Source: Actinomycetota bacterium
GTDB lineage: Bacteria; Actinomycetota; Aquicultoria; Subteraquimicrobiales; Subteraquimicrobiaceae
Reading direction: 5' to 3'
Length of the DNA stretch: 35,340 bases
NCBI GenBank assembly: GCA_030018275.1
Contig: JASEGB010000013.1
Location: 1 to 35,340, forward strand
The position numbers were made by a program, and so were the translations under genes. Shown piece by piece: positions 6,019 through 30,767 of this stretch. The notes under the pieces are model-generated. The model saw only the letters and a program-made list of their open reading frames with translations. It made no database searches and was not told where the DNA came from. The number at the start of each line of letters is the position of its first letter. Position 1 is the stretch's first letter.

Positions 6019-7929
6019 TTAACTCTCAACGGGTCTTAGTTTACCAGGTACCTTTTTTAAGCCGGATTCCCTCCGCTCCGCCCTGACGCTTTCCGATTTC
6101 TGTTCTTCAGCAGTTTGCTCCATTTGGGGAACGGGTTCTTCAACACCCTCAAGGAGTCTAACTAGCTCCTCCTTCTCAAGAGTCTCCCTCTCTATGAGCG
6201 TGTTAGCGATTTTATCGAGCTTTTCGCAATTCTCTTGGAGTATCGTTCTAGCCTTAGTCCAAGCTTCGTCCACGATACGTTTGATTTCCTTATCAATTTC
6301 GTAGGCGACTTCCTGGCTATAATCGGGATGGGATGCGAAATCCCTACCCAAAAAGACCTGATCCTGCTTTTGACCAAGGGTCAATGGACCGAGTTTTTGA
6401 CTCATACCGTACTCGCAGATCATCTGCCGAGCAATTTTGGTGGTTTTCTCCAAATCGTCTTGAGCACCCGTGGTTATATCTTGGAAGATAATCTCTTCGG
6501 CAACGCGCCCGCCCAACAGCATTGCCAGCTCATCGGTGAGCTCCGATTTGGTAACCAAATATCTATCCTCCGTGGGCAGAGTCAAAGTATACCCCAACGC
6601 TCTTCCACGTGGGATTATGGAGATTTTATGGACGGGGTCCGTATTCGGCAAGATGTGTGCCACCAGAGCATGTCCGGCTTCATGATAGGCTATTATCTCT
6701 TTCTCTTTATCACTAATTAGCTTCGTTCTCCGTTCAGGTCCAGCAATCACCCTGTCTATAGACTCTTCGAGTTCCTCCATATCTATATATTTCTTGCCAT
6801 GGCGTGCAGCGAGAAGTGCCGCTTCGTTCACCAGGTTAGCCAGATCCGCTCCGGTAAATCCAGGGGTTCGTCTAGCTAAAACTTCGAGATCGACATCCTT
6901 TGAAAGAGGCTTATCCCTGGTATGGACCTTGAGTATCCCTACTCTACCCTTAAGATCGGGACGATCGACCACGACCTGGCGATCGAACCTACCTGGTCTT
7001 AACAGAGCCGGATCCAGGATGTCGGGACGGTTTGTTGCGGCGATGAGTATCACGTTATCTCTGATATCAAAACCATCCATCTCCACAAGGAGCTGATTAA
7101 GGGTCTGTTCACGTTCATCATGACCTCCGCCGAGACCAGCTCCTCGATGGCGTCCCACGGCGTCTATTTCATCCAAGAAGACGATGCAGGGAGCACTGGT
7201 CTTTGCTTGATTAAAGAGATCCCGCACTCTGGATGCGCCCACGCCGACGAACATCTCAACGAAATCGGAGCCGCTGATGCTGAAGAAGGGAACGCCAGCT
7301 TCACCGGCAATCGCGCGAGCCAGGAGCGTCTTGCCTGCACCGGGCGGTCCATATAGGAGCACTCCCTTGGGTATTTTAGCCCCTAGTGCTCGAAACTTTC
7401 CGGGATTGGCCAAGAATTCCTTTATCTCTTGAAGTTCCTCCACCGCTTCATCAAGCCCGGCGACGTCATTGAAGGTTACCTTGGGCATATCCTTGGTCAT
7501 CATCTTCGCCCGAGCCTTGCCAAAGGACATAACCTTGCTTCCCCCACCCTGCATCTGCTGGAGCATGAATACCCAGATGGCGAGGATTAAGATGAAGGGA
7601 AGAAGATTGGAAAGAATCAGCCACCATACAGTCTCTTTTTGGGGATCAACCTGAGTTGAAACTTTGTGCTTGAGCAATACCTCTGAGATGTTGTAGCTTT
7701 CAGGGTAGGAGACCTCAAATTGAGTGCCGTTCTGTAACTTTCCTTTGATTATATGATCCTTGTCTAAGATTTTTACTTCCTTTACCTTACCCGCTTCAAC
7801 CTGAGCGATGAACTTATTCAGAGTCAATTTCTGAGTGGGCTTCTGATTGAAGAGGTAACTTTGGGCTAGGAACAGAATGAGAATTACAATCAGGAAGTAA
7901 AAAGCTGCGCTCTTGAAAAACCTCTTCAA
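6019..7929 (-). CDS. ftsH: ATP-dependent zinc metalloprotease FtsH
   Basis: FtsH is a hexameric membrane-bound AAA protease that degrades misfolded membrane proteins and regulators. The protein is 636 aa, full length. Transmembrane segments lie at about 8-24 and 105-122 with an extracytoplasmic domain between them. Walker A GPPGAGKT is at 194-201, Walker B IVFLDEID near 249-256, the second-region-of-homology RPGRFDR at 311-317 and the zinc-site HEAGH at 416-420; the third ligand lies in [12 protein letters not shown]. The start is TTG at 7929, 7 bases after a perfect AAGGAGG, and no ATG fits better. tilS lies upstream, as in many Gram-positives, but the usual hpt between them is absent. Confidence 0.97.
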
Positions 7930-8014: not shown

Positions 8015-9424
8015 TTATTCTAAGTCTTCAACTTCTAGCTTTAAGATCGTCTTAGTGCCCCTGTTAACTTTAGCCCTATCATCAATTCTATACCCGATCA
8101 CCCAAAGGATGTGGTCTTTCCCTTGAAGGATGGGAATCCTATCCCTGAGTCTGCGTGGAACCTTCTCATCCACGAAGAAATCTTGCAATTTCTTTTCGCC
8201 CTCCATACCCAAGGGTCTAAAACTATCACCCGGTATTCGAGTGCGCAAGATGAGAGGGGGTTTAAGTTTGTCGGCATCGAGATAAGCCTTTTTGTCCTCC
8301 TTCAGAATTATTTCACCCTTTGCATCCTTAAATTCAGCCCTTATTCGGATTCCCAGGCTGGGGATATCAATTACGCCCGGAATGTTCAGCAAAACTCTTG
8401 GGACCTTGGGGACTTTCAACTTCTCCTTGAGAGTTATGATGAGTGCATCGTATTCGCTCAAGGCGACGAGCCTCCCTGGGAGATCCATTTGCAGATGTGG
8501 CAACTTCCCGGAGACGTATCCCAATATCCCCTCCAAATGTTTGAATTCTATACCCCGCAAATTTCCCTTCACCAACTGTATTCCTCTCCGAAGCACTCTT
8601 CGCTGAATGGCCAAGGGCAACTTCTGAATCCTCTTACAGGACAATTTCACTAAATCCTTCTCAATCACCGCGACCTCATTGAACTTTTCTTCGGCTATCT
8701 CATCGAGGAGGTCTTGTTCCTCACTTAAAATCTCCATGGTTTTAAGGATAACCCCTTTAAAATTTGGATTATACCGCTCCAGAGCCGGAATGAGCTGATG
8801 GCGAACCTTATTCCGCAAATAAGAGGTATCGAGATTCGATAGGTCCAGTCGAAATTCTATCCCCTTTTCTCCGCAATATTCCTGAATTTCGTCTCGGGTT
8901 GATTCAATCAAGGGACGAATGTATTCACCCCTCACCGGAAGCATCCCCCTTAGGCCTTCCTGTCCCGATCCCCGTAGGAGCCTCATGAGAAAGGTCTCAA
9001 CCTGGTCATCGGCATGGTGTCCAAGGGCAATCCTATTGGCTTTTATCTCTCGACCGACCTTTTCCAGCAATCTATATCTGACCTCACGAGCTGCCTCCTC
9101 GGGGGAAAGACGCTCTTTTCTCATATATGCTGGTACGTCAAAGGAGAGAATGGTAGAGGGACATTCCAGCCTTTCAGCCAATTTTTGGACGAAAAGGGCA
9201 TCCTCTTCTGATTCTTTGCGCATCATGTGGTTTAGATGGAATACATGAAGCTTCAATCCCAGTTCACCGCACAGAGCAGTTAGAATGTAGAGCAAGGCAA
9301 CGGAGTCCGGTCCACCGGAGACGGCCACCAGAACCCTATCACCGCTCTTAAGCATATCGTATTTTTCGATGGTCGCCAGCACCTTTCGTTCCAAAGGATG
9401 CCTTTCATCCGAAAGAGTTTTCAT
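8015..9424 (-). CDS. tilS: tRNA(Ile)-lysidine synthase (TilS)
   Basis: TilS adds lysine to C34 of the minor tRNA-Ile (CAU anticodon), which switches its decoding to AUA. At 469 aa it matches the long form. The PP-loop ATPase motif VAVSGGPDSVAL lies near residue 33, followed by HLNHMMRKESEEDA and ALGHHADDQVETFLMRLLRGSG. The C-terminal substrate-binding domain includes GDSFRPLGMEGEKKLQDFFVDEKVPR. The ATG at 9424 has GAGG 7 bases upstream. ftsH is next downstream. Confidence 0.96.
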   Translation of the reverse strand: MKTLSDERHPLERKVLATIEKYDMLKSGDRVLVAVSGGPDSVALLYILTALCGELGLKLHVFHLNHMMRKESEEDALFVQKLAERLECPSTILSFDVPAYMRKERLSPEEAAREVRYRLLEKVGREIKANRIALGHHADDQVETFLMRLLRGSGQEGLRGMLPVRGEYIRPLIESTRDEIQEYCGEKGIEFRLDLSNLDTSYLRNKVRHQLIPALERYNPNFKGVILKTMEILSEEQDLLDEIAEEKFNEVAVIEKDLVKLSCKRIQKLPLAIQRRVLRRGIQLVKGNLRGIEFKHLEGILGYVSGKLPHLQMDLPGRLVALSEYDALIITLKEKLKVPKVPRVLLNIPGVIDIPSLGIRIRAEFKDAKGEIILKEDKKAYLDADKLKPPLILRTRIPGDSFRPLGMEGEKKLQDFFVDEKVPRRLRDRIPILQGKDHILWVIGYRIDDRAKVNRGTKTILKLEVEDLE

Positions 9425-9648: not shown

Positions 9649-10518
9649 TCAATGTTCTCCTGTAAAATACCGCACGACGCCATAGTGAATCCCTTCTGCT
9701 ACCTTCCACTGGTATTCTTCGCTATTGAGCAACCTATCCTCTTCGGGATTGGTTAAGAAACCCGCCTCCACAAGGATCACAGGGACCTTTGACCAATTGA
9801 AACCGGTGAAATCGCTGCGTGGCACGATCCCGTTATTCCGGCAATTGCAGGATTTGACGAGTTCTCGTTGCACCAACCCTGCAGATCGAAGGCTTTCAAG
9901 GTAAATGGATTCCGTCCATTGGTTCCTCGCCGGATAAAAGGTGGTGATACCGCTAACTGATGGATCATTGCTACCATTACAATGTATGCGAACGAAGAGG
10001 TCAGCGCCGACCCTATTTGCAATGGTTGCTCGTTCAATGTTGCTTATATTGACATTATCGGTTTCCCTGGTCATGACCACGACAACACCTGACCTTCCCA
10101 ATAGATTTTTTAATTTGAATGCTATCTGCAGAGTTATTCTGTATTCGGGAACGCCGGATGATACCCCCCTGGCGCCTCCCTTACATTTTTCCTTCATTCG
10201 CGAGGAACGTGGAGCGATGGGCTCAAGGTTCAAATTCCCACGAGCTTGATGCCCTGGGTCGATGCAGACGCACTTTCCCGCCACCTCGCCGGGAAGGGTT
10301 TTGGAACCACCAGCCTCGGTATCCAATTTATTTCTCACAATGGATTCTATGGTCTCGGAAACCTGAGAAAATTTTTCCTCAAAAAATCCCGTTATTGCCG
10401 AAACTAAATTATTTGCCTCTTCGATACTCTCTCGCTTATTTGCATTGGGTGTGGCAGGGATGGAGAGGACGCTGAAGAGGAATAGAAATATGATGACGAA
10501 ATTCAGAACTCTTTTCAT
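9649..10518 (-). CDS. Secreted N-acetylmuramoyl-L-alanine amidase (Amidase_3)
   Basis: This is a zinc amidase that cleaves the bond between N-acetylmuramic acid and the stem peptide in peptidoglycan. The 289-aa protein has an N-terminal signal segment (about 4-22), a linker of about 50 residues, then the catalytic domain from about 80. The zinc ligands are the His in CIDPGHQ, the Glu in GVPEYRIT and the His in VRIHCNG; the catalytic Glu is in ILVEAGFLTNPEED. There is no SH3 or SPOR cell-wall domain. GAGG precedes the ATG at 10518. It starts 12 bases after the ubiT-like gene, so it may be cotranscribed with that cassette, although no functional link is known. Confidence 0.92.
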   Translation of the reverse strand: MKRVLNFVIIFLFLFSVLSIPATPNANKRESIEEANNLVSAITGFFEEKFSQVSETIESIVRNKLDTEAGGSKTLPGEVAGKCVCIDPGHQARGNLNLEPIAPRSSRMKEKCKGGARGVSSGVPEYRITLQIAFKLKNLLGRSGVVVVMTRETDNVNISNIERATIANRVGADLFVRIHCNGSNDPSVSGITTFYPARNQWTESIYLESLRSAGLVQRELVKSCNCRNNGIVPRSDFTGFNWSKVPVILVEAGFLTNPEEDRLLNSEEYQWKVAEGIHYGVVRYFTGEH

Positions 10519-10530
10519 AACTTTATCGCC

Positions 10531-10896
10531 TCAGATGACCACGAGGTCATCAAAGATATTTTTCAGGGTCAAGGCCATTGTAAGCGAGCCCTCCACGGTT
10601 ATTCTCCTCCGGAAGAAAGCAGCGTCAGGATCGATTCGGCCCAAAAAGAGCCCCATAAAAACCTTCAATGACCCGGTAAAGATTACATCTGGCTGGTAAT
10701 TGCGAGTTAAATCTCGTGGAAGTGGTCCTCTAATTGAGCCCTCTTCAATGTTAAAGATGTAAGGTCTTTGGAATTCTGTTAATTTAAGGGCAAAGATTTT
10801 TCCATTCAAAGGGATCAATCTTTCCTTCAGATGGATATTTTTGTGAGTCAAGACTATGATCGCCTTCAAAAATAACTCCCCTAACTTGTAGAGCAT
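10531..10896 (-). CDS. ubiT: SCP2-domain lipid-binding protein, UbiT-like
   Basis: This small SCP2-fold protein of about 121 aa ends with TGSLKVFMGLFLGRIDPDAA and then GSLTMALTLKNIFDDL, a typical sterol-carrier/UbiT pattern. In E. coli, UbiT carries ubiquinone intermediates for the O2-independent hydroxylases UbiU and UbiV. Here it follows a ubiV-like and a ubiU-like gene on the same strand, which supports the assignment. It is shorter than E. coli UbiT (174 aa). The start is uncertain: the ATG at 10896 overlaps the ubiV-like gene by 16 bases, and a TTG at 10929 would add 11 residues. Confidence 0.75.
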   Translation of the reverse strand: MLYKLGELFLKAIIVLTHKNIHLKERLIPLNGKIFALKLTEFQRPYIFNIEEGSIRGPLPRDLTRNYQPDVIFTGSLKVFMGLFLGRIDPDAAFFRRRITVEGSLTMALTLKNIFDDLVVI

Positions 10897-11774
10897 ATTA
10901 AGCGCTTTTCCCTCCCCGTAAAATAGCAAGTGTCCAATCTATATGCTGAGAGTGAAGCCAATTTCTTCTCGGCTTGAGTCGGCGATATCTCTCCATCGAT
11001 CACTGCCTTGAAGATATCAGCAATCCCCACGACATTCTCCGGGATAGTCTCGATTCTTATACCCGCAACCCCCATTCCCTGAAATCTCTTAAGATGAGAG
11101 ATGAGGCAATAGGTCTTGGCATTGTAAACTGCCGGTCCATTCATTATGAACAATGGTTCATCTTCCAAAGTGGCTTGGGGAAGATTCTTCACCTCGTAGC
11201 ATTTGAACCCACAGTCCCTCCTTAGCTTTCCAAATGCCCTAGCCGTATAGCATCGCCAAGAGAAGGCTATAGGAAAGTTACCATAAACGACCACTTCGAA
11301 AGGGATATCGATCTCCTGACACATTTTCTCCATGGTATTCATGGATATGTCCACGGGGAAAAGTATTCGACGAATTTTGTATTTCAACAGAAACCTCGCC
11401 GACTGAGGATTATAAACATTGAAGAAGGGACCCAGCGTCAAAGATTTCTCTCTAAATTCTTTTAGCCAGACATTAAAGATGCCCATGTTATTAACCTCTA
11501 TCTCGTGAGCTTTTGCCATCAATGCACGGCTTTTATTCAGATCCTCTTCATTGGTGGGCAAAACAAGAGTGGATAGAATGACCTCTTTGCCCGCTTTTTT
11601 CAATGAATCTTGAATCTCGATGAAAAGTTCTGGATCAAGTATGTCCCTTTTTGTGCAAGCGATTTCCCCAACATATGCCCTATTTATAGCGGGATGAGCA
11701 GCGACTTTTCGATAGTAATCCAAAATTTTCTCTTTGCCCCAATTGGTGGGAAGCGGACCTATGGCTATTTCCAT
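10881..11774 (-). CDS. ubiV: U32 peptidase-family protein, UbiV-like
   Basis: The protein is 297 aa from the ATG at 11774, which has GGAG 8 bases upstream. The family is annotated as U32 peptidase, but UbiV in E. coli is an iron-sulfur protein of O2-independent ubiquinone hydroxylation. Four cysteines fit a [4Fe-4S] site: C40, C175 in SWRCYTARA, and C188 and C192 in RDCGFKC. The spacing 175-188-192 equals that of E. coli UbiV (180-193-197, from memory), and E. coli C39 matches C40. It lies 117 bp downstream of the ubiU-like gene and overlaps the ubiT-like gene. The natural substrate here is unknown. Confidence 0.85.
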   Translation of the reverse strand: MEIAIGPLPTNWGKEKILDYYRKVAAHPAINRAYVGEIACTKRDILDPELFIEIQDSLKKAGKEVILSTLVLPTNEEDLNKSRALMAKAHEIEVNNMGIFNVWLKEFREKSLTLGPFFNVYNPQSARFLLKYKIRRILFPVDISMNTMEKMCQEIDIPFEVVVYGNFPIAFSWRCYTARAFGKLRRDCGFKCYEVKNLPQATLEDEPLFIMNGPAVYNAKTYCLISHLKRFQGMGVAGIRIETIPENVVGIADIFKAVIDGEISPTQAEKKLASLSAYRLDTCYFTGREKRLICSTS

Positions 11775-11891
11775 TGCATTTGCTCCTTTAACCTTGCACC
11801 CACAATTTACAACCGACCTGACCTGGACTATCAACGAGTTAAGTTATCGCAGGTTAATCCATCTTGTTAATAATTCACCAGATCAACAATT

Positions 11892-12905
11892 TCACTTCTC
11901 CGCATAACAACCGATTATGATTTCCGCGCTTCCGAAAAGAGACGAGAGCCGCTTCAGCCATACTTCACGAACGGTAAAAGAATCGGGATGGGCATAGTAA
12001 GCGTCGATTGCTCGTCTAAAAATTCGACCCGTTGTTCTCACATAGCATCGGGATCTTTGCCTTCCTTCAATCTTTAAGGCATCGACTCCACTCCTTATGA
12101 CATCGGGGAGGATGGGCAGAATATTGAGAGGCATGGGGAATTGCATCGGATACCCCACACTATTTAAGAGAAGATTACAATATTTGCTCTTACAAGGTGT
12201 TGGATAAGAGAAAACTTCCTCCGGTTCGAGCACGTTCAACAGATGACCATTCAATCTTATCTCCAGTCTATTATTCTTCCAATTGAATACGACAAAATCT
12301 GAGGGGGAGCACATCCCATAGGTATTATTGGAGACACCAGTGAGATACGGGGAAAGATAGCATCTACCTTCACAATTTATGCACAATACACCATAGGCAA
12401 ATATCTCCAATTCGACGGATGTCAATGCCCTGAGTTCCCTGATCTCATCGAGATGCATAACCCTGGGAAGGGTGACGCTCTTTATGCCAAACTCCCTCTC
12501 GTAAAATTCGATGGCTTGAGCATTGCAGGCCGAAGCCAGGACACTCAAATGAATGGGAAAATTTGGGAAGTTGTTCCTCACAAACTCCAATGCGCTGAGG
12601 TCGCTGACGATTATGGCATCGGCTCCAACGGAGTAAGCAGCCTGTACACACTTATAACAATCATCAAGTTCGCCTATTTGAGGATAGGTGTTTACCGTAA
12701 CATAAATCTTCTTTCCCCTTCGATGAGCAAATTCAATACCCTTCTTTAGCTCCTCTAGGGAAAAATTTAAACCCGGAAAATTTCGGGCATTTGTGGGGGC
12801 TCTGAAGCCGACATAAACCGCATCGGCGCCATTTTCCACCGCTTCTTTGAGACCGGCGAGAGTTCCTGCTGGCATTCTGAGCTCAACTTTTTTCGTTATT
12901 TCCAT
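11892..12905 (-). CDS. ubiU: U32 peptidase-family protein, UbiU-like
   Basis: This 337-aa protein has the UbiU signatures ENGADAVYVGFRAPTNARNF, PGLNFS, LPRVMHLDEI, EGRCYLSPYLTG and KIEGRQRS. Cysteines 175, 182, 199 and 238 have exactly the spacings (7, 17, 39) of the E. coli UbiU cluster ligands C169, C176, C193 and C232. UbiU with UbiV forms the anaerobic ring hydroxylase of ubiquinone synthesis and is also implicated in prephenate-dependent chemistry. It is the first gene of the ubiU-ubiV-ubiT-like run. The ATG at 12905 has AAGGTGG upstream. A true U32 protease role is less likely given the cysteine pattern. Confidence 0.87.
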   Translation of the reverse strand: MEITKKVELRMPAGTLAGLKEAVENGADAVYVGFRAPTNARNFPGLNFSLEELKKGIEFAHRRGKKIYVTVNTYPQIGELDDCYKCVQAAYSVGADAIIVSDLSALEFVRNNFPNFPIHLSVLASACNAQAIEFYEREFGIKSVTLPRVMHLDEIRELRALTSVELEIFAYGVLCINCEGRCYLSPYLTGVSNNTYGMCSPSDFVVFNWKNNRLEIRLNGHLLNVLEPEEVFSYPTPCKSKYCNLLLNSVGYPMQFPMPLNILPILPDVIRSGVDALKIEGRQRSRCYVRTTGRIFRRAIDAYYAHPDSFTVREVWLKRLSSLFGSAEIIIGCYAEK

Positions 12906-13190
12906 GGACGATCTTCCACCTTTTAAAATATTTTAACCCAAAAACGCAGTAAAAGGAATTTGAGAAAACGCAGGTTTTAAAATCTTTGATTGAATGCACA
13001 TCGGGGTTAATTCTCCGTAAAAAGAAGGAGATACTAACAAATAAATCGAATATAGAAAGATGAAAAACAAATACTTTCGTTGGAGCAAAATACTTCCTCT
13101 GTCCCCATAATTCTTCCAGCATTCTTGCGCTATACAACGTTTTCACACCATTGAAAGGGGTGAGTTTTTCCTTTGAAAAGGACAACCCCT
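12906..13190. other. Divergent intergenic region
   Basis: This AT-rich region separates the minus-strand ubiU-like operon from the plus-strand kinase, so promoters for both should lie here. I see the palindrome TTAAAATATTTTAA near 12931 but no convincing -35/-10 pair. A 100-codon open frame on the minus strand (12883-13185) is Phe-rich, overlaps ubiU and resembles nothing I recognise, so I do not call it a gene. Confidence 0.5.
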
Positions 13191-14138
13191 ATGGCGCATA
13201 AAAAAATCAATGAAGATATTTCACAGCTGCAAAATTTGATTAAGAATGAAAAAGCACAAATCACCAAAGATATCCAAGAGAAAATCGATCAAGTATTACA
13301 TGATATTTGTATTGACCTGGAAACTTGCAAAAGAAAAATATCTAGAAATGAGCTTCGGGAAGCAAAAGATGAGCTTTGCCACGTAAAGAAAACCATGTCT
13401 ACATGCATTTTGGAAGTCCGCAAAATCATATATCAGCTGAGATTAAGAGCTAACGGATGCTCTAGTTCGTCAGGAGGTACAGATAGAAAATTATCGATTG
13501 TCGAAAGATTGATGGGGAATGAGAGTCTCAAAATCGCTGAGGTATTACACGATACCACCCTACAAAAGCTTGCCACTCTCCTGGTTGGGGTGCAACTTTG
13601 TGAAAGACTTTTGTCCAAAGATATTCGCAAGGTGAGAATGCAAATCGCCAATCTTAGAAATCTAGCTCTGGATACTCGCCGGGAAGTAGCAAAATTTCCC
13701 CTCGAACGGGACATCACAGAAGAAAATTTTCTCCTCATATCCGCATTGAAGGAACATCTAATAACCTTTCAAAACATTTCAAACATAACAGTTGAACTGC
13801 GCATCAAAGGAAAAGAGGATGGAATCTCCCAAAAAGTCAAAATCAATCTGTTTAAAATAATCAAAGAAGCCTTGACCAATATAGAAAAGCATGCCAAGGC
13901 AAATAGGGTGGAAATAGATTTAAATATGGCTGGTGATCGAATATTAGCCACCGTTGCCGATAACGGCAGAGGATTCGATTTAACTGCGAGTGTCGCCAAA
14001 TCGAGAATATCTGGACATTTGGGTCTTACATGGATGGATGAGAAAGTTAGAGCCTTGGAGGGCACCCTCACCATCAATACCAATCCCGGGAAGGGCACAA
14101 GGATAATGGTGGACATTCCGAATTCGCGGGTATCTTAA
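13191..14138 (+). CDS. Soluble NarL-type sensor histidine kinase with a duplicated HisKA_3-like segment
   Basis: This 315-aa protein has no membrane segment or recognisable sensor domain. A HisKA_3-type dimerisation segment with phosphoacceptor context IAEVLHDTTLQ (H120) is followed by an HATPase_c domain: N-box FKIIKEALTNIEKHAKAN (N230), G1 VADNGRGFD (D257) and G2 GHLGLTWMDEKV. An N-terminal stretch (about 20-85) also contains IDQVLHDICIDL (H37), which looks like a second, degenerate copy of the dimerisation segment. The ATG at 13191 follows AAAGG. A NarL-like response regulator starts 30 bases downstream, so they form a two-component pair. The stimulus is unknown and probably cytoplasmic. 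Confidence 0.88.
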   Translation: MAHKKINEDISQLQNLIKNEKAQITKDIQEKIDQVLHDICIDLETCKRKISRNELREAKDELCHVKKTMSTCILEVRKIIYQLRLRANGCSSSSGGTDRKLSIVERLMGNESLKIAEVLHDTTLQKLATLLVGVQLCERLLSKDIRKVRMQIANLRNLALDTRREVAKFPLERDITEENFLLISALKEHLITFQNISNITVELRIKGKEDGISQKVKINLFKIIKEALTNIEKHAKANRVEIDLNMAGDRILATVADNGRGFDLTASVAKSRISGHLGLTWMDEKVRALEGTLTINTNPGKGTRIMVDIPNSRVS

Positions 14139-14168: not shown

Positions 14169-14789
14169 ATGAGGGGACTGAAAATCTTAATAGTAGACGA
14201 TCATAACCTCTTTCGTAAGGGATTACGAAAGATCCTTGAATTGGAAAAGGATATAGGCATCATTGAGGAAGCAGCAAATGCTTCTGAAGCCGTTCAAAAG
14301 TCCAAGGAAATATGTCCCGATGTGGTATTGATGGATATAACCATGCCCGAGACGGATGGCATAGAGGCAACGAGACTTATAAAAACAGTTTCCCCCACAA
14401 GTGATATAATTATCCTCTCCATGCACGATGATGATCACTACCTCTTTGGAGCAATTAAAGCGGGAGCTAGAGGTTATGTACTTAAAGAAGCAACCGTTGA
14501 AGAGCTTGTGGAAAGCATTAAAGCCACAGTAAAGGGAGAAAGCCCGCTTAATCCCATATTAGCTCGCCGAATTTTGGACGAATTCGCCAACTCGCAGAAA
14601 GCTGAGATTGTACAGGGCGATTTTGATAAGCTGACTCAAAGGGAAAAGGAGATTTTAAAATTTGTAGCCGGGGGCAAGAAAAATGAAGAGATAGCAAAAA
14701 AGCTATTCATAAGCGAAAAGACGGTCAAGAATCACCTTTCAAATACTTCCACAAACTACATTGTAATGATCGAACTCAAGCCGTATTAG
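14169..14789 (+). CDS. NarL/LuxR-type response regulator 1, frameshifted in its HTH domain
   Basis: The receiver domain is intact: the acidic pair VDD, phospho-acceptor D56 in VVLMDITMP, the switch Ser in IIILSMHDDD and the Lys in YVLKEAT. The LuxR HTH follows (LTQREKEILKFVAGG, SEKTVKNHLSN), but the frame then changes to an unrelated tail and stops at 14789. In another frame the expected end reads CNDRTQAVLEGVRLGIIEIE and stops at 14825-14827. One missing base near 14742-14752 explains this. As read, the last HTH helices are lost, so DNA binding is doubtful. GAGGAAAAG precedes the ATG. The restored stop would sit 5 bases from the convergent lipoprotein stop, a natural gene boundary. Confidence 0.85.
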   Translation: MRGLKILIVDDHNLFRKGLRKILELEKDIGIIEEAANASEAVQKSKEICPDVVLMDITMPETDGIEATRLIKTVSPTSDIIILSMHDDDHYLFGAIKAGARGYVLKEATVEELVESIKATVKGESPLNPILARRILDEFANSQKAEIVQGDFDKLTQREKEILKFVAGGKKNEEIAKKLFISEKTVKNHLSNTSTNYIVMIELKPY

Positions 14790-17769: not shown

Positions 17770-18477
17770 GTGCAGAATGTGGCAATTATCAAAACTGGAC
17801 CGAGGATGCTAAGGCGAATGGTGAAGGCAAGAGTTAGAAAGAAGATTTTGTCTAGTTTGCTAACAATTGGGTTAGTGGCAATCCTCATCGGTGGAGCAAC
17901 ATTCGCCTACTTCAGCGATACCGAGACGAGTACCAACAACTTAGCCCAAGCAGGAACCTTAGACTTGAGAATGGGACCACCTGCTTATGAAGTCGATAAT
18001 CCAGGTGCGATAATTACAGCGACGAATTTGGCACCCTGCAAAGAGGCGGGTCCCTATGAAATCGGGTTTAAGAATGTTGGTACCTTGCCTGGCATCCTAA
18101 GCATCACCATCTCTTATGACGATGCTGATGGCACTGGCACAGCAGAGTTTAGACCAGGACTCGTAACTGCTAATGCATTTGCCGAGAAACTTTATGTGAC
18201 TCAGGCACTCTACGACAGGAACCAGGACGGCGATTATGAGGATACAAATGAGGACGTGCTGGCTGATTGGAAGGCTTACGCCGATGCCAATAACGATGGC
18301 AAGCTGAGCGTACATGAGATGGCTTTGAAGACCTGGACCTTTACTGAATCCCTAGGTCCTGGAGCATCTACAAAAGTCCAGATCAAGTTGCATCTGAATC
18401 CTGACGTAGGCAACGACTATCAGGCTGAAGGCATCAACGTAACCATCACCGGCATCCTGAATCAACTGAACCAATAA
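17770..18477 (+). CDS. SipW-cognate exported protein (TasA/camelysin-like), copy 1
   Basis: This 235-aa protein has the diagnostic SipW-dependent leader: basic residues, a hydrophobic stretch LTIGLVAILIGGATFAYFSD, then TETSTNN and AGTLDLRMG (mature part from about residue 47). Known relatives form extracellular fibres or metalloprotease-like camelysins. The mature part is a beta-rich domain with a perfect EF-hand-type loop DANNDGKLSVHE at 172-183 and a second Asp/Asn-rich loop at 149-162. The GTG at 17770 is 6 bases after AAGGAGGGG. A paralog follows at 18534 and the ER-type signal peptidase at 19571, so leader removal is probably done by that enzyme. No catalytic protease motif is visible. 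Confidence 0.88.
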   Translation: MQNVAIIKTGPRMLRRMVKARVRKKILSSLLTIGLVAILIGGATFAYFSDTETSTNNLAQAGTLDLRMGPPAYEVDNPGAIITATNLAPCKEAGPYEIGFKNVGTLPGILSITISYDDADGTGTAEFRPGLVTANAFAEKLYVTQALYDRNQDGDYEDTNEDVLADWKAYADANNDGKLSVHEMALKTWTFTESLGPGASTKVQIKLHLNPDVGNDYQAEGINVTITGILNQLNQ

Positions 18478-18533
18478 TGGCTGAAAAGGGGTGATGCAAA
18501 TCATCCCTGATCCACTTGATTAGGATCGGGGCG

Positions 18534-19208
18534 ATGAGTATGAATCTACGAATACTCAAATCCATATTGATCATAATCACCATATTGACCCTGGTGGGTG
18601 GAGCAACTGTCGCCTATTTCACCGATACTGAGACTAGCACTGGAAATACGTTCACCGCGGGTACTTTTGATCTCAAAGTTGCAGATAACAACGAGGATTA
18701 TGGCGATGGCGTGCATGAAACGTGGACGATGAAAAATATGATTCCAGGGGTAACCACCTGTGGAGGCATGGTTCTCCTTAAAAACTTTGGAAGCATCGAA
18801 GCGGACCACGTGGAGATCGAGGTCAGCAACGATTGCATCGAAGCTGGGAATGAGGAAAGCGACACCCTTCCAAAAAGCGCCGAAGGCATGGATGAGTATA
18901 TCCAAATAACCCACATGGAATATTATGGTCGTTTGCTACTCTTCACGGACACGGATGATCCCGATGCAGATGACGATGATCCCGCAACTCCCTGGAACGA
19001 GGTTGACGACGTCAACGGAAATGGATTTATCGATCTGGATGATTTTGAACAAAAGCCAATCGATGATTTAAAACCAGTTCCGACGCCAGACATTGGTAGA
19101 TGCTTTATAATGTACCTCAAATTCCACAAAAGCGCTCCAAACGACTACCAGGGTGATAAGTGCGATATGACCATGACCTTTACATTGAATCAGCACTCAA
19201 GCCAGTAA
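18534..19208 (+). CDS. SipW-cognate exported protein (TasA/camelysin-like), copy 2
   Basis: This 224-aa protein from the ATG at 18534 (AGGA 8 bases upstream) shares the leader pattern ILTLVGGATVAYFTDTETST then GNTFTAGTFDLKV. The mature domain has MIPGVTTCGGMVLLKNFGS, a pattern common in TasA-like proteins. A highly acidic stretch (about 139-150) and an EF-hand-like loop DVNGNGFIDLDD (159-170) suggest calcium binding. There are three cysteines after the leader. It follows copy 1 by 56 bases and ends at a strong terminator, so the two form one unit, probably two subunits of one fibre or matrix. Confidence 0.88.
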   Translation: MSMNLRILKSILIIITILTLVGGATVAYFTDTETSTGNTFTAGTFDLKVADNNEDYGDGVHETWTMKNMIPGVTTCGGMVLLKNFGSIEADHVEIEVSNDCIEAGNEESDTLPKSAEGMDEYIQITHMEYYGRLLLFTDTDDPDADDDDPATPWNEVDDVNGNGFIDLDDFEQKPIDDLKPVPTPDIGRCFIMYLKFHKSAPNDYQGDKCDMTMTFTLNQHSSQ

Positions 19209-19570
19209 AGGAATATATAAAGAGGCATCAAAGAAGCACGCATGGTGAGCGAGTGGCGAAATTCGCCACTCGCTTTCTTCATAAATTTGATTTTTTGTTA
19301 TAAGCGTCATTTAAGATGTAGAAATAGGTCTTAAGACCTGTTATTTTTGGGAATATGTTATTCCAATTTGAACAGACCTAAAGGTCTGTACAAGGTTCTC
19401 TTATTTTTATCCATAATTTCGTGGTAAGCTAAAAGCTACCTACAATAAATTCTGCGGCGGATGGTCCGCCGCGCTGCAATAAATTTGATATAGAGCATTC
19501 CCCTCCAAAAAAGCTTATGAGAGTAGGGCTGGGGTTCATCCCCAACCGATGATTCGGAGTTCATCGTGAA
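19209..19570. other. Intergenic region with terminator and repeats before the signal peptidase gene
   Basis: After the terminator come a family 1 palindrome (19320-19392), a family 2 unit GGCGGATGGTCCGCCGCGC (about 19454-19474) and a third hairpin GGCTGGGGTTCATCCCCAACC (19533-19552). No small ORF with a ribosome site is apparent. The signal peptidase gene must have its own promoter here if the terminator is efficient, but I see no clear consensus. Confidence 0.6.
19248..19282 (+). terminator. Terminator after the SipW-cognate pair
   Basis: AGCGAGTGGCGAA and TTCGCCACTCGCT form a 13-base perfect stem with a one-base centre, followed by TTCTTC. It lies 40 bases after the stop of copy 2. Confidence 0.75.
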
Positions 19571-20107
19571 ATGCTTAAAAGAATCATCAAATGGTCAATA
19601 ATATCTCTGATAATCCTGGTGTTTTTATTGGCGGTGGCTTCCGTATTCACGCGACTCAAGTCCTTTGAATCGCTGCCTTCAGTGAAGGGCTACCGACCCC
19701 TTGTGGTTCTCGGCGGGAGCATGGAACCGGCGATAAAGGTTGGAAGCATCGCCATGGTCAAAACCATAAGTCCATCGGATGTTGAGATCGGTGACATCAT
19801 AACCTACAAAACTCCAACGAATCCTCGCACTTACACCACTCACAGAGTGATAAAAATCAGCAAGCGCCATGGGAATCTCTATTTCAAAACCAAGGGTGAT
19901 GCCAATGAAGATCCGGACCGTTGGACGATCACATCCGCCGACGTTTTGGGCAAAGTAACCTTAACCATTCCTTACTTCGGTTATTTCATCCACTTTGCCC
20001 GAACTCGCCTCGGTTTTATCCTGCTCGTCATCGTCCCCGGCGTTCTGATAATCGTGGGCGAAATTCGAAATATCCTCAAATCCATCAAAGAAGCCAGAAG
20101 CATCTAA
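19571..20107 (+). CDS. sipW: ER/archaeal-type signal peptidase I (SipW-like)
   Basis: This 178-aa membrane peptidase removes leaders of exported proteins. N-terminal (about 8-27) and C-terminal (about 145-168) membrane segments flank the catalytic domain. The nucleophile is S50 in VLGGSMEPAIKVGS. As in the ER-type group that includes Bacillus SipW, the second catalytic residue is a His (H91 in YTTHRVIKI) in place of the Lys of ordinary bacterial enzymes. The box KTKGDANEDPD around D110 is also typical. Placed between the two SipW-cognate genes and the rest of the surface locus, it is probably dedicated to them. The ribosome site is weak. Confidence 0.93.
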   Translation: MLKRIIKWSIISLIILVFLLAVASVFTRLKSFESLPSVKGYRPLVVLGGSMEPAIKVGSIAMVKTISPSDVEIGDIITYKTPTNPRTYTTHRVIKISKRHGNLYFKTKGDANEDPDRWTITSADVLGKVTLTIPYFGYFIHFARTRLGFILLVIVPGVLIIVGEIRNILKSIKEARSI

Positions 20108-20211
20108 GGGGGACAGTCCCCACAATCTTACTACCTGTAACTTTAAGTTCCCATCCAAAATATTTTGCTGCTTGTCGGCAGACAGGCCGGGGACAAGTCT
20201 CGAGATTCATC

Positions 20212-20279
20212 TCTCAGACTTTAGTCTTAATGAAAAATCCATCCAATGACCGATGTTACCATGTTTCTCTTTAGTTTAA
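20212..20279 (+). repeat. Long direct repeat, copy B
   Basis: Near-identical to copy A at 17517-17583. The conserved part includes ACTTTAGTCTTAATG and CCATCCAATGACCGATG. It lies about 300 bases upstream of the exported beta-protein gene at 20585. Confidence 0.9.
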
Positions 20280-20417
20280 GATTATGATTAGAATAGCAAA
20301 TTTAAATTTCCCAATTTTTGACATTCTCGCATTCGTACGAAAGTAAGAAAGATTAGAGCAGGAAAGAGTTTTTAAAAGTTATTTGAAATGAATTAATAGT
20401 TGAAGTAATGAAGGCGG

Positions 20418-20466
20418 AACCGACTGACCCAGGAGTGGCACTCGAAGGGGAAGTCGGTTTTTGGTT
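20418..20466 (+). terminator. Hairpin with T-tract in the leader of the exported beta protein (attenuator candidate)
   Basis: AACCGACT and AGTCGGTT pair perfectly, extended by ACCC/GGGG, with an inner GAGT-GGC-ACTC hairpin. TTTTTGGTTTT follows. It lies about 120 bases before the start codon at 20585, with no gene ending just upstream, so it is either the end of a small RNA or a leader attenuator. Confidence 0.6.
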
Positions 20467-20584
20467 TTGAAGAGGGGGTGATATAAAGGGTTGCATAAAA
20501 GAGGTTGCAGAAAGGGTGTGGCTCGCTGGCTAACCCACCTGGTTAAGACTTTAACTCTTATTAAAGGAAAGGAGGTGTTGACAA

Positions 20585-21142
20585 GTGAAGAAGCTATTAG
20601 CAATGGTTTTAGCAGCAGTGCTTTTGCTCAGCTTCTCGGGGATTGCTTTGGCGACACAGGTGCACAGCATAGGCACGGATTTGGATATGCAGAGCGTTTC
20701 CAAGAATTTACCCATCACGGTGAAAATCCATCCCACCATAGCCATGAATACCTTCGACAAGGAAACAGGAGACCAGAAGGATGTGATTAACATTCCTTGT
20801 TTGAACCCCAAGACCAACTGGCTTGGTAAGGATGGCGTGGATTGGGTTGTCTGGAGTAACCTGCCATTTCATAAGACCGCATCCTGGACCGACCTTAAGA
20901 CCAGTTGGAATGCGGGTACTGTGGCGGAGCCGAAGATGATTGAAGACGTCATAACAGCAGATAGAGTGGTAGTCAAAGTGGAGGGTGTGCCGATTCCAAA
21001 TCCCTGGACGAGTCCAATAATAGGCTATCCAGCTGAGCAGCACCAAGAGAAGGAAAACGTTATGGTGCAACTTGAGATCAACTGGTGTGACTCCGCCGGT
21101 ATATACACGGGATCACTTACCCTGGATGCGCATCAGAACTAA
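20585..21142 (+). CDS. Small exported beta-rich protein of unknown function
   Basis: This 185-aa protein has a classical signal peptide (LLAMVLAAVLLLSFSGIALA, cleavage about 23-24), unlike the SipW-type leaders nearby. The mature part begins near THSIGTDLDMQSV-type sequence (TQVHSIGTDLD), has ITVKIHPTIAM and ends NWCDSAGIYTGSLTLDA. The closing pattern G-Y-x-G-x-L-x-L is common in immunoglobulin-like pilin or coat subunits. Only two cysteines are visible. The GTG at 20585 is 8 bases after a perfect AAGGAGGTG, so translation should be strong. It is followed by its own hairpin. It may be an abundant structural subunit; the family is not recognised. Confidence 0.8.
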   Translation: MKKLLAMVLAAVLLLSFSGIALATQVHSIGTDLDMQSVSKNLPITVKIHPTIAMNTFDKETGDQKDVINIPCLNPKTNWLGKDGVDWVVWSNLPFHKTASWTDLKTSWNAGTVAEPKMIEDVITADRVVVKVEGVPIPNPWTSPIIGYPAEQHQEKENVMVQLEINWCDSAGIYTGSLTLDAHQN

Positions 21143-21162
21143 TCTCGACTTCCCAATGTATC

Positions 21163-21205
21163 AGAAGAGAGGAAGGGAGGGGCCCATCTCTTCCTCTCTT
21201 CTTGC
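21163..21205 (+). terminator. Probable terminator after the small exported protein
   Basis: AGAAGAGAGGAAG and CTTCCTCTCTTCT form a 13-base stem with a 14-base loop, 20 bases after the stop codon. The T-tract after it is poor. Confidence 0.55.
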
Positions 21206-21239
21206 CCTCATTTATGGATTATTTATGAAATTTTGAGAT

Positions 21240-21290
21240 AACAGACCTAAAGGCGTGCTACCCTCCCGGCGGGCGGCAGGCGGTCTGTTT
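21240..21290. repeat. Palindromic repeat, family 1 (short variant)
   Basis: AACAGACCTAAAGG is followed by a GC-rich centre (CCTCCCGGCGGGCGGCAGG) and CGGTCTGTTTC. It resembles the right half of the copy at 3268-3356. Confidence 0.65.
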
Positions 21291-21332
21291 CAGAATCTAT
21301 AGTGCTATATGTTAAGATAAGGAAAAAAATCG

Positions 21333-22310
21333 ATGGGGATTGTCGTGCTAAAGCTAAAGAAAGTGCAAAGATATATTTCGATGTCCATTTTAATAACCAT
21401 TTTGCTTCTACTGCTGGCAAGTCCAGCACAAGGGAGTATTGTTCTTTTCCCCAGTAGGATTGAAGTCTTCGTGCCACCTGGAGGAAGTGAAATCGTAGAG
21501 GTGAATGCGGCAAATACGGGCAAGAACCCTCTTAAGTGCAAGATAAATAGCTGGGATTTCGCACGGGATGAGAAGGGCATAGCCCACCCCATCCGCCCCG
21601 ATGATGTCAAGGTCTTCCGAGGTTGCGGTGGGTGGTTGGACTTTCACAGCAAATCGATGACCGTTTCCCCCGATGAGACCGGTACCTTCAAGTTCACGGT
21701 GAATGTTCCCAGGGATGCCGAATATGGCACCCATTATACCTATGTGACCATTGCAGGAACACCAATCTTACCCAAGGAAAAAGGAAAGGGGATCACCATT
21801 CGCTTGCCCATGACCTATAGGATACATGCATTGCTCTTGGTGATGGTGAGCAAGCCCGGTGAGAGCTCAGAGGTGGGCACAGAAATTCCCGTCCTTAAGC
21901 GCTCGGCAAAATTGAAGGATTTAATGATTGGTTACTTAAATTTCTCAAATCCGGTTCCAATGAAGATAAAGATTGAAAACACCGGCAACTGTCATCTAAT
22001 CTTAACGGGAATCATCGAAATTTGGAAGGGTAAGTACAAGGGCGAGACCATCCGCGTTCCCGAATATACGCTATTGCCAATGAATACTTTGATCATACCC
22101 ACTACCTGGCGCTCACCGGCACTTTTCGGCAAATTTAGAGCCAAATTGATTGGCGATGCCGGATTAAATAAACCAATTAAAGCGGAAAAGACCTTTTGGG
22201 TGATATCCTGGAAATTATTGCTGCCCGCTCTTTTAGGAATCGCACTCCTCATCGCCTCATTCATCTTATTCCTAAGGAAGTTTAGAATACAGCTCGCCCG
22301 GCGCACATAA
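21333..22310 (+). CDS. Membrane-anchored surface protein resembling DUF916/DUF3324 WxL-interacting proteins, copy 1
   Basis: This 325-aa protein has an N-terminal signal (about 15-35, ending PAQGS), an Ig-like domain beginning VLFPSRIEVFVPPGGSE, a second beta domain (IKIENTGNCHLILTG, LLPMNTLIIPT, ALFGKFRAKL), a C-terminal membrane segment (about 291-312) and a basic cytoplasmic tail. This order is that of Firmicutes DUF916/DUF3324 proteins, which bind peptidoglycan and WxL surface proteins. A paralog lies at 24115; both share the block F-x-GCG-x-W and V-P-x-DA-x-x-GT. AAGGA precedes the ATG. It opens a tight five-gene run ending with the sortase. The family assignment is by pattern, not by search. 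Confidence 0.75.
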   Translation: MGIVVLKLKKVQRYISMSILITILLLLLASPAQGSIVLFPSRIEVFVPPGGSEIVEVNAANTGKNPLKCKINSWDFARDEKGIAHPIRPDDVKVFRGCGGWLDFHSKSMTVSPDETGTFKFTVNVPRDAEYGTHYTYVTIAGTPILPKEKGKGITIRLPMTYRIHALLLVMVSKPGESSEVGTEIPVLKRSAKLKDLMIGYLNFSNPVPMKIKIENTGNCHLILTGIIEIWKGKYKGETIRVPEYTLLPMNTLIIPTTWRSPALFGKFRAKLIGDAGLNKPIKAEKTFWVISWKLLLPALLGIALLIASFILFLRKFRIQLARRT

Positions 22311-22326
22311 TTCAGACGTAGTTCCC

Positions 22327-22380
22327 TGTAGGGGCGGGACTTCGTGCCCGCCCAAAGGCGGGGGACAAGCCCCGCGCTAC
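22327..22380. repeat. Palindromic repeats, family 2
   Basis: GTAGGGGCGGGACTTCGTGC with its CCCGCCC partner is followed by GGCGGGGGACAAGCCCCGCG and CTAC. It nearly matches the unit at about 15659-15685. Confidence 0.75.
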
Positions 22381-22399
22381 CCATGGGATTCTGGAAAGT

Positions 22400-22447
22400 A
22401 CAAACAGGTCTTTAGACCTGTTTAACAGACTAAAGGTCTGTTTCTAC
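22400..22447. repeat. Palindromic repeat, family 1 (compact copy)
   Basis: AAACAGGTCTTTAGACCTGT is followed by TTAACAGACTAAAGGTCTGT and TTCTAC. This is the cleanest copy of the family and shows its two inverted halves. Confidence 0.75.
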
Positions 22448-22469
22448 GAGATTCTTTGGGACTGAAAAG

Positions 22470-24110
22470 ATGTGGAAGATGAAAAGAACGAGAGGAGGGG
22501 CAAGGAAAAGATTAATATCCGTGTTGCTTTCAATTTGCCTCATCCTCCCCTATATTCCTTGTGGAGTTGCTTCCGCTCATGGTGGCGGTCATCCCCATGA
22601 TGGTCATCCTCCCCATGAACATCAGGGTCATCCCCCTCACGATCATCATGGCTCATGCTGTGAGCCCCCAGAGGATGCCATAATCTTAAACATAGAGACA
22701 CCAGATGGTTCAGGGCAAGTCAATTTCACCTGCTTGAATCCGATAACCCACAAATTTGAGATCATCGATGACCCCTATGCGGTGAAGGTCACCGTGAAAT
22801 CACCCTGTGATTATGATCTTGCGGTTAAGGCAAACGGCGATTTAACAAATACTCTTTGTTCCTCGACTATCCCCATAGAAAACTTGTATTGGAAATTAAA
22901 GGAAGGAGATGAGTGGGTACCCTTCTCCACCGAGCAACACTTGATAATGGATTCTGATTGCACAAATTCAAACGATGCCTTTTACTTTGATTATCGGATG
23001 TTCAGTTCAGAAAATGGTGTGAGTTGGGAGATCAAAGCTGGGGGTTATGAGACCACCGTTGTGTACACGGTGTTCCCATGTGCAGAGAATAACCACTGCG
23101 ATGATGGATGCGGAAATGTGAATCACTCTCCTGGAGGTCAAAATGGCAAAGCTCATCAAAATGTTAATCATGAAAATCAAATCAATGAGCAATCAGATGA
23201 ACATGGACATAACGGAGAACATTACCCCGAACATCCCCAAGGACATGGAGGTCATCAGCATCAAAATGATAGTGATGTTCAAAATGATGGACGAGCTGAA
23301 GCCGGATACCATGGAGAGCATGGGCATGGTGGAAACGCTATGAGTCACGATTCAAATCAAGGAGATGGTAACCAGGATACTACTCATCGGGATCAATCCC
23401 ATTCCAATGTAGCTCCAAATGAGAGTCTAAATCAAGATCAGGAAACCCCAGGACAAGATTTAAGTCCATCTGAGGATATGGATGCTTCTGAGAGTTCTCT
23501 GCCTGAGGATACTACTCCCCCGCAGGTGGTTTTCATCACTGCGGGAGGAGAAGTTGAGGGCACCATTCCCATCAAGATCGCCGCCATCGATGATACAGGA
23601 ATAGAACAGGTTAAATTATTCATCGATGATGCTGAAATGGGCGATGTCCCCTTGAATGAAGAGGAATCGATGTACATCCATGATTGGGATACAACCACAA
23701 CCCAGGATGGAGAACATACCCTCGTGGTAAAGGCTTACGACCAGGCGGGAAATGAAGCTGTCTCCGATCCCTTAACTTTGACCACGAACAATCCTCCCTC
23801 CTCACCAAGGAACCTTATAGCAACTTCCAAAGAAGACGGAATCAATCTCACCTGGTCACCAAATCCCGAGACTGATATTGCGGGATACAACATCTATCGA
23901 GCAACATTCCAAGATGGTCCCTTTGAAAAAATAAATCAAGAATTGGTGACTTCTACATCTTTCAAGGATACGGGAATTAATTTGGACGATTCCTACTATT
24001 ATTTCATCAAAGCAGTGGATGAGACGGGTAAGGAATCTGAGGCGTCACAAACGGTATGGATTCCAGCCATCGCTCAATCGGAAAGCATCGTACCCGAGCC
24101 TAAAGAATAG
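22470..24110 (+). CDS. Large exported His-rich protein with Ig-like and fibronectin type III domains
   Basis: This 546-aa protein has a signal peptide (about 14-36). A His-rich cluster follows at once (about 37-62, including GHPHDGHPPHEHQGHPPHDH), then a cysteine-containing beta domain (about 67-215), a second His/Asn/Gln-rich low-complexity linker (about 225-325), an acidic Ser/Glu stretch, an Ig-like domain (PQVVFITAGGEVEGTIPIKI to DPLTLTTNN) and an Fn3 domain (SSPRNLIATSKEDGINLTW to ASQTVWIP). It has no sorting signal or membrane anchor, so it is probably held by partners. The histidine clusters could bind zinc, nickel or copper. It lies between the two DUF916-like genes. Confidence 0.85.
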   Translation: MWKMKRTRGGARKRLISVLLSICLILPYIPCGVASAHGGGHPHDGHPPHEHQGHPPHDHHGSCCEPPEDAIILNIETPDGSGQVNFTCLNPITHKFEIIDDPYAVKVTVKSPCDYDLAVKANGDLTNTLCSSTIPIENLYWKLKEGDEWVPFSTEQHLIMDSDCTNSNDAFYFDYRMFSSENGVSWEIKAGGYETTVVYTVFPCAENNHCDDGCGNVNHSPGGQNGKAHQNVNHENQINEQSDEHGHNGEHYPEHPQGHGGHQHQNDSDVQNDGRAEAGYHGEHGHGGNAMSHDSNQGDGNQDTTHRDQSHSNVAPNESLNQDQETPGQDLSPSEDMDASESSLPEDTTPPQVVFITAGGEVEGTIPIKIAAIDDTGIEQVKLFIDDAEMGDVPLNEEESMYIHDWDTTTTQDGEHTLVVKAYDQAGNEAVSDPLTLTTNNPPSSPRNLIATSKEDGINLTWSPNPETDIAGYNIYRATFQDGPFEKINQELVTSTSFKDTGINLDDSYYYFIKAVDETGKESEASQTVWIPAIAQSESIVPEPKE

Positions 24111-24114
24111 ACGA

Positions 24115-25044: not shown

Positions 25045-25046
25045 CA

Positions 25047-25730: not shown

Positions 25731-25764
25731 TCCCAAACCTACTAGTTCCAACTTAAGAGGCAAA

Positions 25765-29867: not shown

Positions 29868-30767
29868 CTACAAAAGGGCTTGCAGCCAAAGGTCGAGGCA
29901 CATGCCTAAGAAGATCAATCCAAGGTAGGGATAGGCGGATATCTTATAGACCCTCCAGGCATCCCTCTCTCCTCGTCTTCTGGAAAGATAAACATTGCTT
30001 AAGAACATCAGGATTCCCAATACATTGGCGATGATTAAATAAAGCATGGAGAATTTGCCCACAAAATAGAGACCAATGGTCGTTGCATAAAGAAGGATGG
30101 ATAAAGCCAGCAAAGTTCTTATTGTGGTCTCGATTCCCCGATTGATGGGGAACATCACCACACGGGCTTGCAAGAAATCGTCTCGATAGGCGGTCATCAA
30201 ACTCCAGACGTGAATGGGAGTCCAGGATAAGATGAGTAGGCAGAGCAATCCGATGGTCAAATCGAGCTTATGGCTTATGGCAGTATAACCCACCAAGATG
30301 GGTGCAGAACCCGATATTCCTCCCAGAATGTGGGTTATGGACCGCTTGCGACCGACCACAGCCGTTGTAATGCCCAAGGCTCCAGATAGAAAGCAAAGAG
30401 GATGTAAATACCAGGCAAGGGCAAGAGCGATGATCAACAGACCGATGGCATAGGGCAACATTTTCTCGGGTGGATTGATCCTTTTGGAAGGGAGGGCGCG
30501 ATGCTTGGTTCTCTTCATGAGGGCATCGACTTCACGATCGAGGTAGTTGGTGAGACCATTGCAACCAGCGCTTCCCAGAATAACAGCAACGGCGGTTATC
30601 AGAAGAAGGTTGGACGGAGGAAATCCCTTTCCGGCGACGATGGCGGCGCAGATACCAATGAAGGCGAGAAGGATGGTTTCCTTTGGTTTCATTACCTCAA
30701 CATAATTCTTGATCGTTGCTACGACGTTGCTCACTAACTCTTCCTCTTCTACCTTTTCGATGACCAT
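29868..30767 (-). CDS. ctaB: UbiA-family prenyltransferase, protoheme IX farnesyltransferase-like
   Basis: This 299-aa protein has about eight to nine membrane segments. The first Asp-rich motif is NYLDREVDALMKRTKHRALP, which in CtaB/COX10 carries NxxDxxxD. The second region, SWTPIHVWSLMTAYRDDFLQ, matches the CtaB pattern (W-x-x-PHF-W...YR-x-DY). CtaB attaches a farnesyl group to heme b for heme O. No cytochrome oxidase genes are in the window, so another UbiA-family role (quinone or lipid) remains possible. AGGAAGG lies 8 bases before the ATG at 30767. It stands alone between toxin-antitoxin remnants. Confidence 0.8.
   Translation of the reverse strand: MVIEKVEEEELVSNVVATIKNYVEVMKPKETILLAFIGICAAIVAGKGFPPSNLLLITAVAVILGSAGCNGLTNYLDREVDALMKRTKHRALPSKRINPPEKMLPYAIGLLIIALALAWYLHPLCFLSGALGITTAVVGRKRSITHILGGISGSAPILVGYTAISHKLDLTIGLLCLLILSWTPIHVWSLMTAYRDDFLQARVVMFPINRGIETTIRTLLALSILLYATTIGLYFVGKFSMLYLIIANVLGILMFLSNVYLSRRRGERDAWRVYKISAYPYLGLIFLGMCLDLWLQALL

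Follow-up and report, generated by a model that had tools for sequence, protein, structure and literature searches.

The closest described relative of the locus reported here is the UbiT-UbiU-UbiV (YhbTUV) set of Escherichia coli, in which clusters are bound by C169, C176, C193 and C232 of UbiU and by C39, C180, C193 and C197 of UbiV (PMC6747719). A survey of 5,750 genomes in the same paper found ubiTUV only where there were signs of ubiquinone production. A survey published in 2026, covering 26,264 genomes, described the ubiquinone pathway of Desulfobacterota class GWC2-55-46 as the first for which there is evidence beyond Pseudomonadota, and regarded two further non-Pseudomonadota genomes as likely annotation errors (PMC13386864). 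We found no mention of UbiUVT in Actinomycetota in the accessible portion of that paper, and none of UbiUV in this phylum in a literature search that ran mostly over records lacking full texts or supplementary tables. Here we analyze a ubiU-ubiV-ubiT-like gene trio in a 35,340-nucleotide stretch of DNA (hereafter the window; contig JASEGB010000013.1 of assembly GCA_030018275.1) from a member of Actinomycetota, class Aquicultoria. On the best explanation taken as a whole, to which we give a probability of roughly one half, the products of the three genes would constitute an authentic UbiU-UbiV-UbiT-type hydroxylase module, independent of O2, that acts in isoprenoid-quinone biosynthesis, on an intermediate of naphthoquinone type or, less likely, of benzoquinone type.

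Identity of the three proteins

The three genes are co-directional (12905-10531, minus strand) and occupy exactly the interval, 10531-12905, where an earlier reading of the sequence alone had proposed a complete ubiU-ubiV-ubiT-like cassette, an assignment with which profiles and trees agree. The ubiU-like gene (11892..12905, minus strand) starts at an ATG and encodes a U32 protein of 337 amino acids whose best NCBIfam match is UbiU (NF047963, 375.1 bits, under the curated cut-off of 440). The ubiV-like gene (10881..11774, minus strand) encodes 297 amino acids from an ATG at 11774, which, as read from the sequence, is a better start, with AAGGAG upstream, than the TTG at 11834 to which the open reading frame extends (317 amino acids); its product is best matched by UbiV (NF047965, 212 bits, under the curated cut-off of 275). 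Similarly, the ubiT-like gene (10531..10896, minus strand) has its better start at the ATG at 10896, where 16 bases are shared with the end of ubiV (again read from the sequence), giving 121 amino acids, and the frame reaches a TTG at 10929 (132 amino acids); the best match of this protein, UbiT (NF047962, 56.9 bits), exceeds its cut-off of 46.9. Pfam profiles place a U32 domain in the UbiU- and UbiV-like proteins and an SCP2 domain (PF02036, 57.2 bits) in the UbiT-like protein. Compared with their E. coli counterparts (row L109), UbiU agrees at 41% over 333 columns, UbiV at 28% over 271 and UbiT at 33% over 54. No further U32 protein was found in the host genome, and a sequence search found no solved-structure relative of UbiU or UbiV.

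The cysteine spacings of both U32 proteins equal those of E. coli, as had been noted beforehand: C175, C182, C199 and C238 of UbiU are spaced 7-17-39, and the last three of C60, C195, C208 and C212 of UbiV (numbered from the TTG start) are spaced 13-4. As proof of identity, however, spacing is weak and was set aside, since related U32 proteins share most or all of these residues; three of the four UbiU cysteines also occur in all six TrhP rows and all four rows labelled pairA, and all four UbiV cysteines are present in the five pairB rows. The trio is thus identified by its profile matches, its positions in the trees and the co-presence of all three proteins rather than by spacing alone. Measured against 41 UbiU rows from named genomes, with a column counted as invariant at 97% or more, the window UbiU retains 67 of the 79 proteobacterial invariant columns, compared with 40-44 in the TrhP-type rows (n=6) and 38-41 in the pairA rows (n=4); the UbiU proteins of other rows from the host's class keep 48 to 68, the lowest being that of genome G009. 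The window UbiV retains 27 of 34 such columns and the pairB rows (n=5) retain 19.

Grouping with RlhA/TrhP-type U32 proteins, which the sequence-only reading had named as the result that would speak against its assignment, was not seen for TrhP. In the UbiU tree (58 rows, comprising 48 UbiU and 10 TrhP or pairA sequences, with no RlhA rows) the window protein lies on the UbiU side of a split supported at 100/100. Likewise, in the UbiV tree (50 rows, rooted on pairB) the window protein groups with UbiV and is separated from pairB by a branch supported at 100/100.

Two observations concern the cysteines of other class members. Five records from other families of the class (L020, L022, L023, L024 and L027) encode, side by side, two different short U32 proteins of about 340 and 315 amino acids, one with all four UbiV cysteines and the other with three of the four UbiU cysteines. 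In addition, the ubiU frame of genome G006 contains a single in-frame TGA (L047 14390-14392, minus strand) precisely where the first cluster cysteine (C175 in the window) would be encoded. Selenocysteine, a nonsense mutation and an error in the sequence are all possible readings, and folding produced no convincing stem-loop.

Quinone genes and the proposed substrate

By homology to E. coli (PMC6747719), UbiU and UbiV would form a heterodimer, each subunit with a [4Fe-4S] cluster on four conserved cysteines, that would hydroxylate the aromatic ring of a prenylated substrate without O2, and UbiT, through its SCP2 domain, would present the prenylated lipid substrate or act as a lipid carrier. In the host, the likeliest substrate would be an intermediate of the futalosine route to menaquinone, or else finished menaquinone, and the product a naphthoquinone that is hydroxylated or changed in some other way; ubiquinone is an unlikely product.

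A role for the UbiUVT proteins of the class in quinone synthesis is most strongly supported by the gene content of two operon-like clusters in another class member, G010. One (L045, 2-6130) reads ubiD-ubiX-ubiU-ubiT-polyprenyl synthase-mqnX-like and the other (L046, 5244-13333) reads ubiD(mqnL)-mqnE-like-ubiU-ubiV-mqnE-like-ubiU-ubiA(mqnP), each entirely on one strand, with an SCP2 protein that has no NCBIfam match just upstream in L046. Together they hold three UbiU, one UbiV, one UbiT, two UbiD and two divergent MqnE-like radical SAM proteins, for which a tree gave no clear placement; no match to PF02621, the MqnA/MqnD family, was detected in this genome (89% complete). The occurrence of trio genes inside quinone clusters favors the earlier suggestion that the cassette may hydroxylate another quinone or lipid. 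A more specific and tentative proposal, to which we give perhaps one chance in three, is that the class makes an undescribed isoprenoid quinone without O2, with UbiUVT acting on a futalosine-derived prenylated naphthoquinone-type intermediate and the mqn/ubi hybrid of G010 building it.

The futalosine route is the predicted source of menaquinone in the host itself, because host contig C3 carries an mqn cluster and no MenD exceeds the cut-off in any of the nine genomes searched (weak matches only, 52-67 bits versus 244). The C3 stretch encodes an MqnX-like protein, a PF01048 phosphorylase, MqnC (TIGR03699, 512 bits), MqnA, MqnE (TIGR03700, 528 bits), a MenG-type methyltransferase, UbiD, UbiA and UbiX, with MqnC and MqnE both over cut-off. 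MqnA matches SCO4506 of Streptomyces coelicolor at 227 bits; the MqnA of G056, a genome from the same phylum as the host, matches it at 532 bits over all 256 query residues, which supports the placement in Actinomycetota. The host MqnA is also the only host protein matched by PF02621, a profile that detects MqnD in seven of 36 class genomes; MqnA without MqnD is common in the class. The prior description of the host as a monoderm anaerobe holding the full trio is supported by a sortase encoded in the window and by the lack of COX1, the marker sought for heme-copper oxidases (cytochrome bd was not searched); among nine genomes examined, including all six with the trio, COX1 was found only in trio-free G018. 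The host belongs to Actinomycetota and is not the proteobacterium with a normal ubiquinone pathway that the sequence-only reading had named as a second result against its assignment.

Three UbiA-family proteins are encoded by the host: that of the mqn cluster, a MenA-like protein and one within the window (29868..30767, minus strand) that is closest to heme O synthase (TIGR01473, 180.5 bits, cut-off 210.3) and was not counted among the genes of the pathway. The last lies near trpE/pabB-like and ilvE/pabC-like genes in a host without COX1, and similar proteins occur in two further genomes in which COX1 is absent, G003 and G009.

Several points weigh against the best explanation. Two of its three proteins score below the curated NCBIfam cut-offs and are thus classed as relatives rather than as ubiquinone equivalogs. 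The trio lies on a different contig from the host mqn cluster, with no quinone gene beside it. The mqn set also occurs in several class members that lack the trio, indicating that the trio is not required for menaquinone. Conversely, G009 (100% complete; L044, L210, L211 and L275) combines the trio with a methyltransferase of MenG type (252 bits) and, near ubiU, a cytochrome of NapC/NirT type. Searches there found no MqnA/MqnD-family protein and no MenD over cut-off, and menaquinone headgroup genes were not recognised; the trio is thus not bound to the futalosine route in every genome. Finally, the L045 UbiD of G010 is nearer the ubiquinone type (634 versus 482 bits), which fits a benzoquinone equally well. 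Gene content was also uneven in two other trio genomes: no UbiT match was seen beside ubiUV of G006, and G002 showed neither a PF02621 match nor a MenG above its cut-off, each of which is present in its congener G001, a gap that we attribute to the assembly because the quinone contig of G002 starts inside ubiD.

The alternative that survives best, although we consider it doubtful, is that a benzoquinone resembling ubiquinone or methyl-plastoquinone is made in the class without O2, besides or instead of menaquinone, with UbiUVT supplying its ring hydroxyls in the manner known from Pseudomonadota. This would suit the ubiquinone-type UbiD beside ubiX-ubiU-ubiT in G010, the presence of the trio without MqnA/MqnD in G009, and the UbiA of the host mqn cluster, whose best profile is that of a 4-hydroxybenzoate octaprenyltransferase (PRK12888, 345.5 bits, cut-off 364). 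The same UbiA, however, lies within the mqn cluster and scores low on proteobacterial UbiA (120 bits, cut-off 275), and its neighbor UbiD is of menaquinone type (640 bits, over the menaquinone cut-off of 496). Among the methyltransferases, that of G010 passes the MpqE cut-off (361 versus 335 bits) and that of the host, of UbiE/MenG type, is best on MpqE (321 bits, cut-off 335), but trio-free G012 and G003 are MpqE-like too (279 and 273 bits), and the MpqE score was dropped as a marker for this reason. Moreover, none of three further host methyltransferases scanned reached the UbiG cut-off (best 42.4 versus 103; no genome-wide search for UbiG or UbiC was made).

It is less likely still that the target of hydroxylation is not a quinone at all but, for example, tRNA, rRNA or a lipid of the membrane. 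Other U32 proteins do act in tRNA hydroxylation (PMC6599085; the NCBIfam name of TrhP agrees), the host trio does not adjoin quinone genes and it is the only U32 set found in the genome, but tree and profile set UbiU apart from TrhP, the SCP2 partner suggests a lipid and the G010 clusters suggest quinones. We regard as quite improbable a third possibility, that UbiUV stands in for MqnD in the futalosine route by supplying a ring oxygen after an MqnD-free cyclisation. None of the six trio genomes, the host included, shows MqnD, compared with seven of 36 across the class; nevertheless, families f2 and f5 have MqnA, MqnC and MqnE and neither MqnD nor the trio, which makes such a substitution unlikely, and a PF01048 phosphorylase adjoins mqnC in G001, G003, G006 and G018 too, in keeping with the mqnZ proposal. 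The phosphorylase of host contig C3 (L042 4644-5480) likewise adjoins mqnC in a genome without MqnD and fits the published proposal of mqnZ as an MqnD replacement (PMC4746308).

Distribution, neighborhood and age of the trio

Within the host's class, UbiU exceeded 250 bits in six of 36 genomes: the host (G000), G001 and G002 (family f1), G006 (f4), G009 (f7) and G010 (f8), with the UbiU of G002 split across two contigs. The remaining class genomes scored at most 172 bits or had no match, and none of the 36 reached the cut-off of 440. Across 396 sampled Actinomycetota genomes, UbiV scored about 170 bits or more in the same six and nowhere else (next best 81.5), and none passed the cut-off of 275.

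In the UbiU tree the seven rows of the class form one clade (96/98) outside the clade of 36 other Pseudomonadota rows (92/93), and the nearest row from outside the class is a single Deltaproteobacteria record (L081; 89/81, not starred); these placements carry a warning of long-branch attraction, as four rows, including G009, one of those from G010, and G006, sit on long branches. The UbiV proteins of the class, too, fall beyond the branch of proteobacterial UbiV (100/98), and since G010 diverges first they form no single clade there. Comparison of the host with G001 gave ratios of nonsynonymous to synonymous substitution (dN/dS) of 0.17 for ubiU, 0.32 for ubiV and 0.38 for ubiT, and in the controls 0.31 for the amidase, 0.22 for tilS, 0.37 for the histidine kinase, 0.06 for mqnA, 0.10 for mqnC and 0.09 for ubiD. 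The trio is therefore under purifying selection, more relaxed than that on the mqn genes.

Downstream of the trio lie an N-acetylmuramoyl-L-alanine amidase gene (9649..10518; PF01520, 150 bits) and two genes that we take to be tilS (8015..9424) and ftsH (6019..7929), all on the minus strand. The order FolE-FtsH-TilS-amidase-UbiT-UbiV-UbiU is common to the host, G001 and G009, the last of which belongs to another family and has one extra gene between FtsH and TilS. Trio-free G012 keeps FolE-FtsH-TilS-amidase, followed by UbiX-UbiA-UbiD and then MqnE-MqnA-MqnC-MqnD, indicating that the trio and the mqn genes share one spot, beside the amidase, across families. Purifying selection, together with the shared neighborhood in another family, indicates that the trio is old in the class and represents neither contamination nor recent transfer. 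The sequence-only reading had allowed for a transferred or an ancestral pathway; recent transfer from Pseudomonadota is rejected on the evidence of the UbiU tree and the between-family synteny, and the data favor a long-standing, probably vertical presence in this one Actinomycetota class. That the locus is a contaminating contig, a recent transfer or a decaying relic is very improbable: the in-frame stop codon of G006 and the elevation of host trio dN/dS above that of the mqn genes are outweighed by the recurrence of the same surroundings in G001 (same genus), in G009 and, in pieces, in G002, by the single UbiU clade and by dN/dS values well under 1.

On the other side of the trio, a histidine kinase gene with HisKA_3 and HATPase_c domains and no recognised sensor domain (13173..14138, plus strand) diverges from ubiU and is a possible regulator; by eye, a similar kinase gene adjoins ubiU in G001 and G002. 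The gap between ubiU and the kinase in the host, G001 and G002 contained no FNR site with fewer than three mismatches and no NarL heptamer. A NarL-type response regulator follows (14169-14789), its C-terminus shorter than in the G001 copy (L048 14236-14955) in a manner that looks by eye like a frameshift. The FtsH frame of G001 (L048 4343-7597) carries a long insertion that by eye resembles an intein and is missing from the window FtsH. Farther along, 17770-27985 is a cell-surface gene region with SipW-type exported proteins, a signal peptidase, the sortase and a lamin-tail-domain protein.

Comparison with known systems

The occurrence of the trio in Actinomycetota of menaquinone type breaks the reported link between ubiTUV and ubiquinone and bears on whether O2-independent hydroxylases predate ubiquinone. 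Together with the menaquinone-type cluster of G010, it suggests that quinone chemistry includes an oxygen-free step not yet described, and the genes provide a concrete starting point for seeking a new quinone. If such a quinone is indeed made, UbiUVT would serve as an anaerobic module for tailoring quinones in general, one whose use extends beyond ubiquinone and which may predate it.

TrhP and RlhA proteins share the U32 family with the host proteins, and the TrhP rows hold three of the four UbiU cysteines, but TrhP proteins form a separate clade and have longer frames than host UbiU. The futalosine pathway is represented in the host by MqnA, MqnC, MqnE, the MqnX-like protein, the PF01048 phosphorylase, UbiD, UbiA, UbiX and the MenG-type methyltransferase, with MqnD absent; no role for UbiUVT in this pathway was found in the literature examined. 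The E. coli UbiT-UbiU-UbiV system is like that of the host in having three proteins encoded side by side, the same cysteine spacings and an SCP2 partner (PMC6747719), whereas the host carries a menaquinone cluster of futalosine type, a ubiquinone pathway was not recognised in it, and its UbiT is shorter (121 amino acids versus 174 in E. coli). The ubiquinone pathway of Desulfobacterota GWC2-55-46 (PMC13386864) likewise places UbiUVT beyond Pseudomonadota, branching outside them, and is O2-independent only. That lineage, however, has ubiA, B, C, D, E, G, K and X, no sign of a menaquinone pathway and the support of E. coli mutant tests, whereas the host has mqn genes instead.

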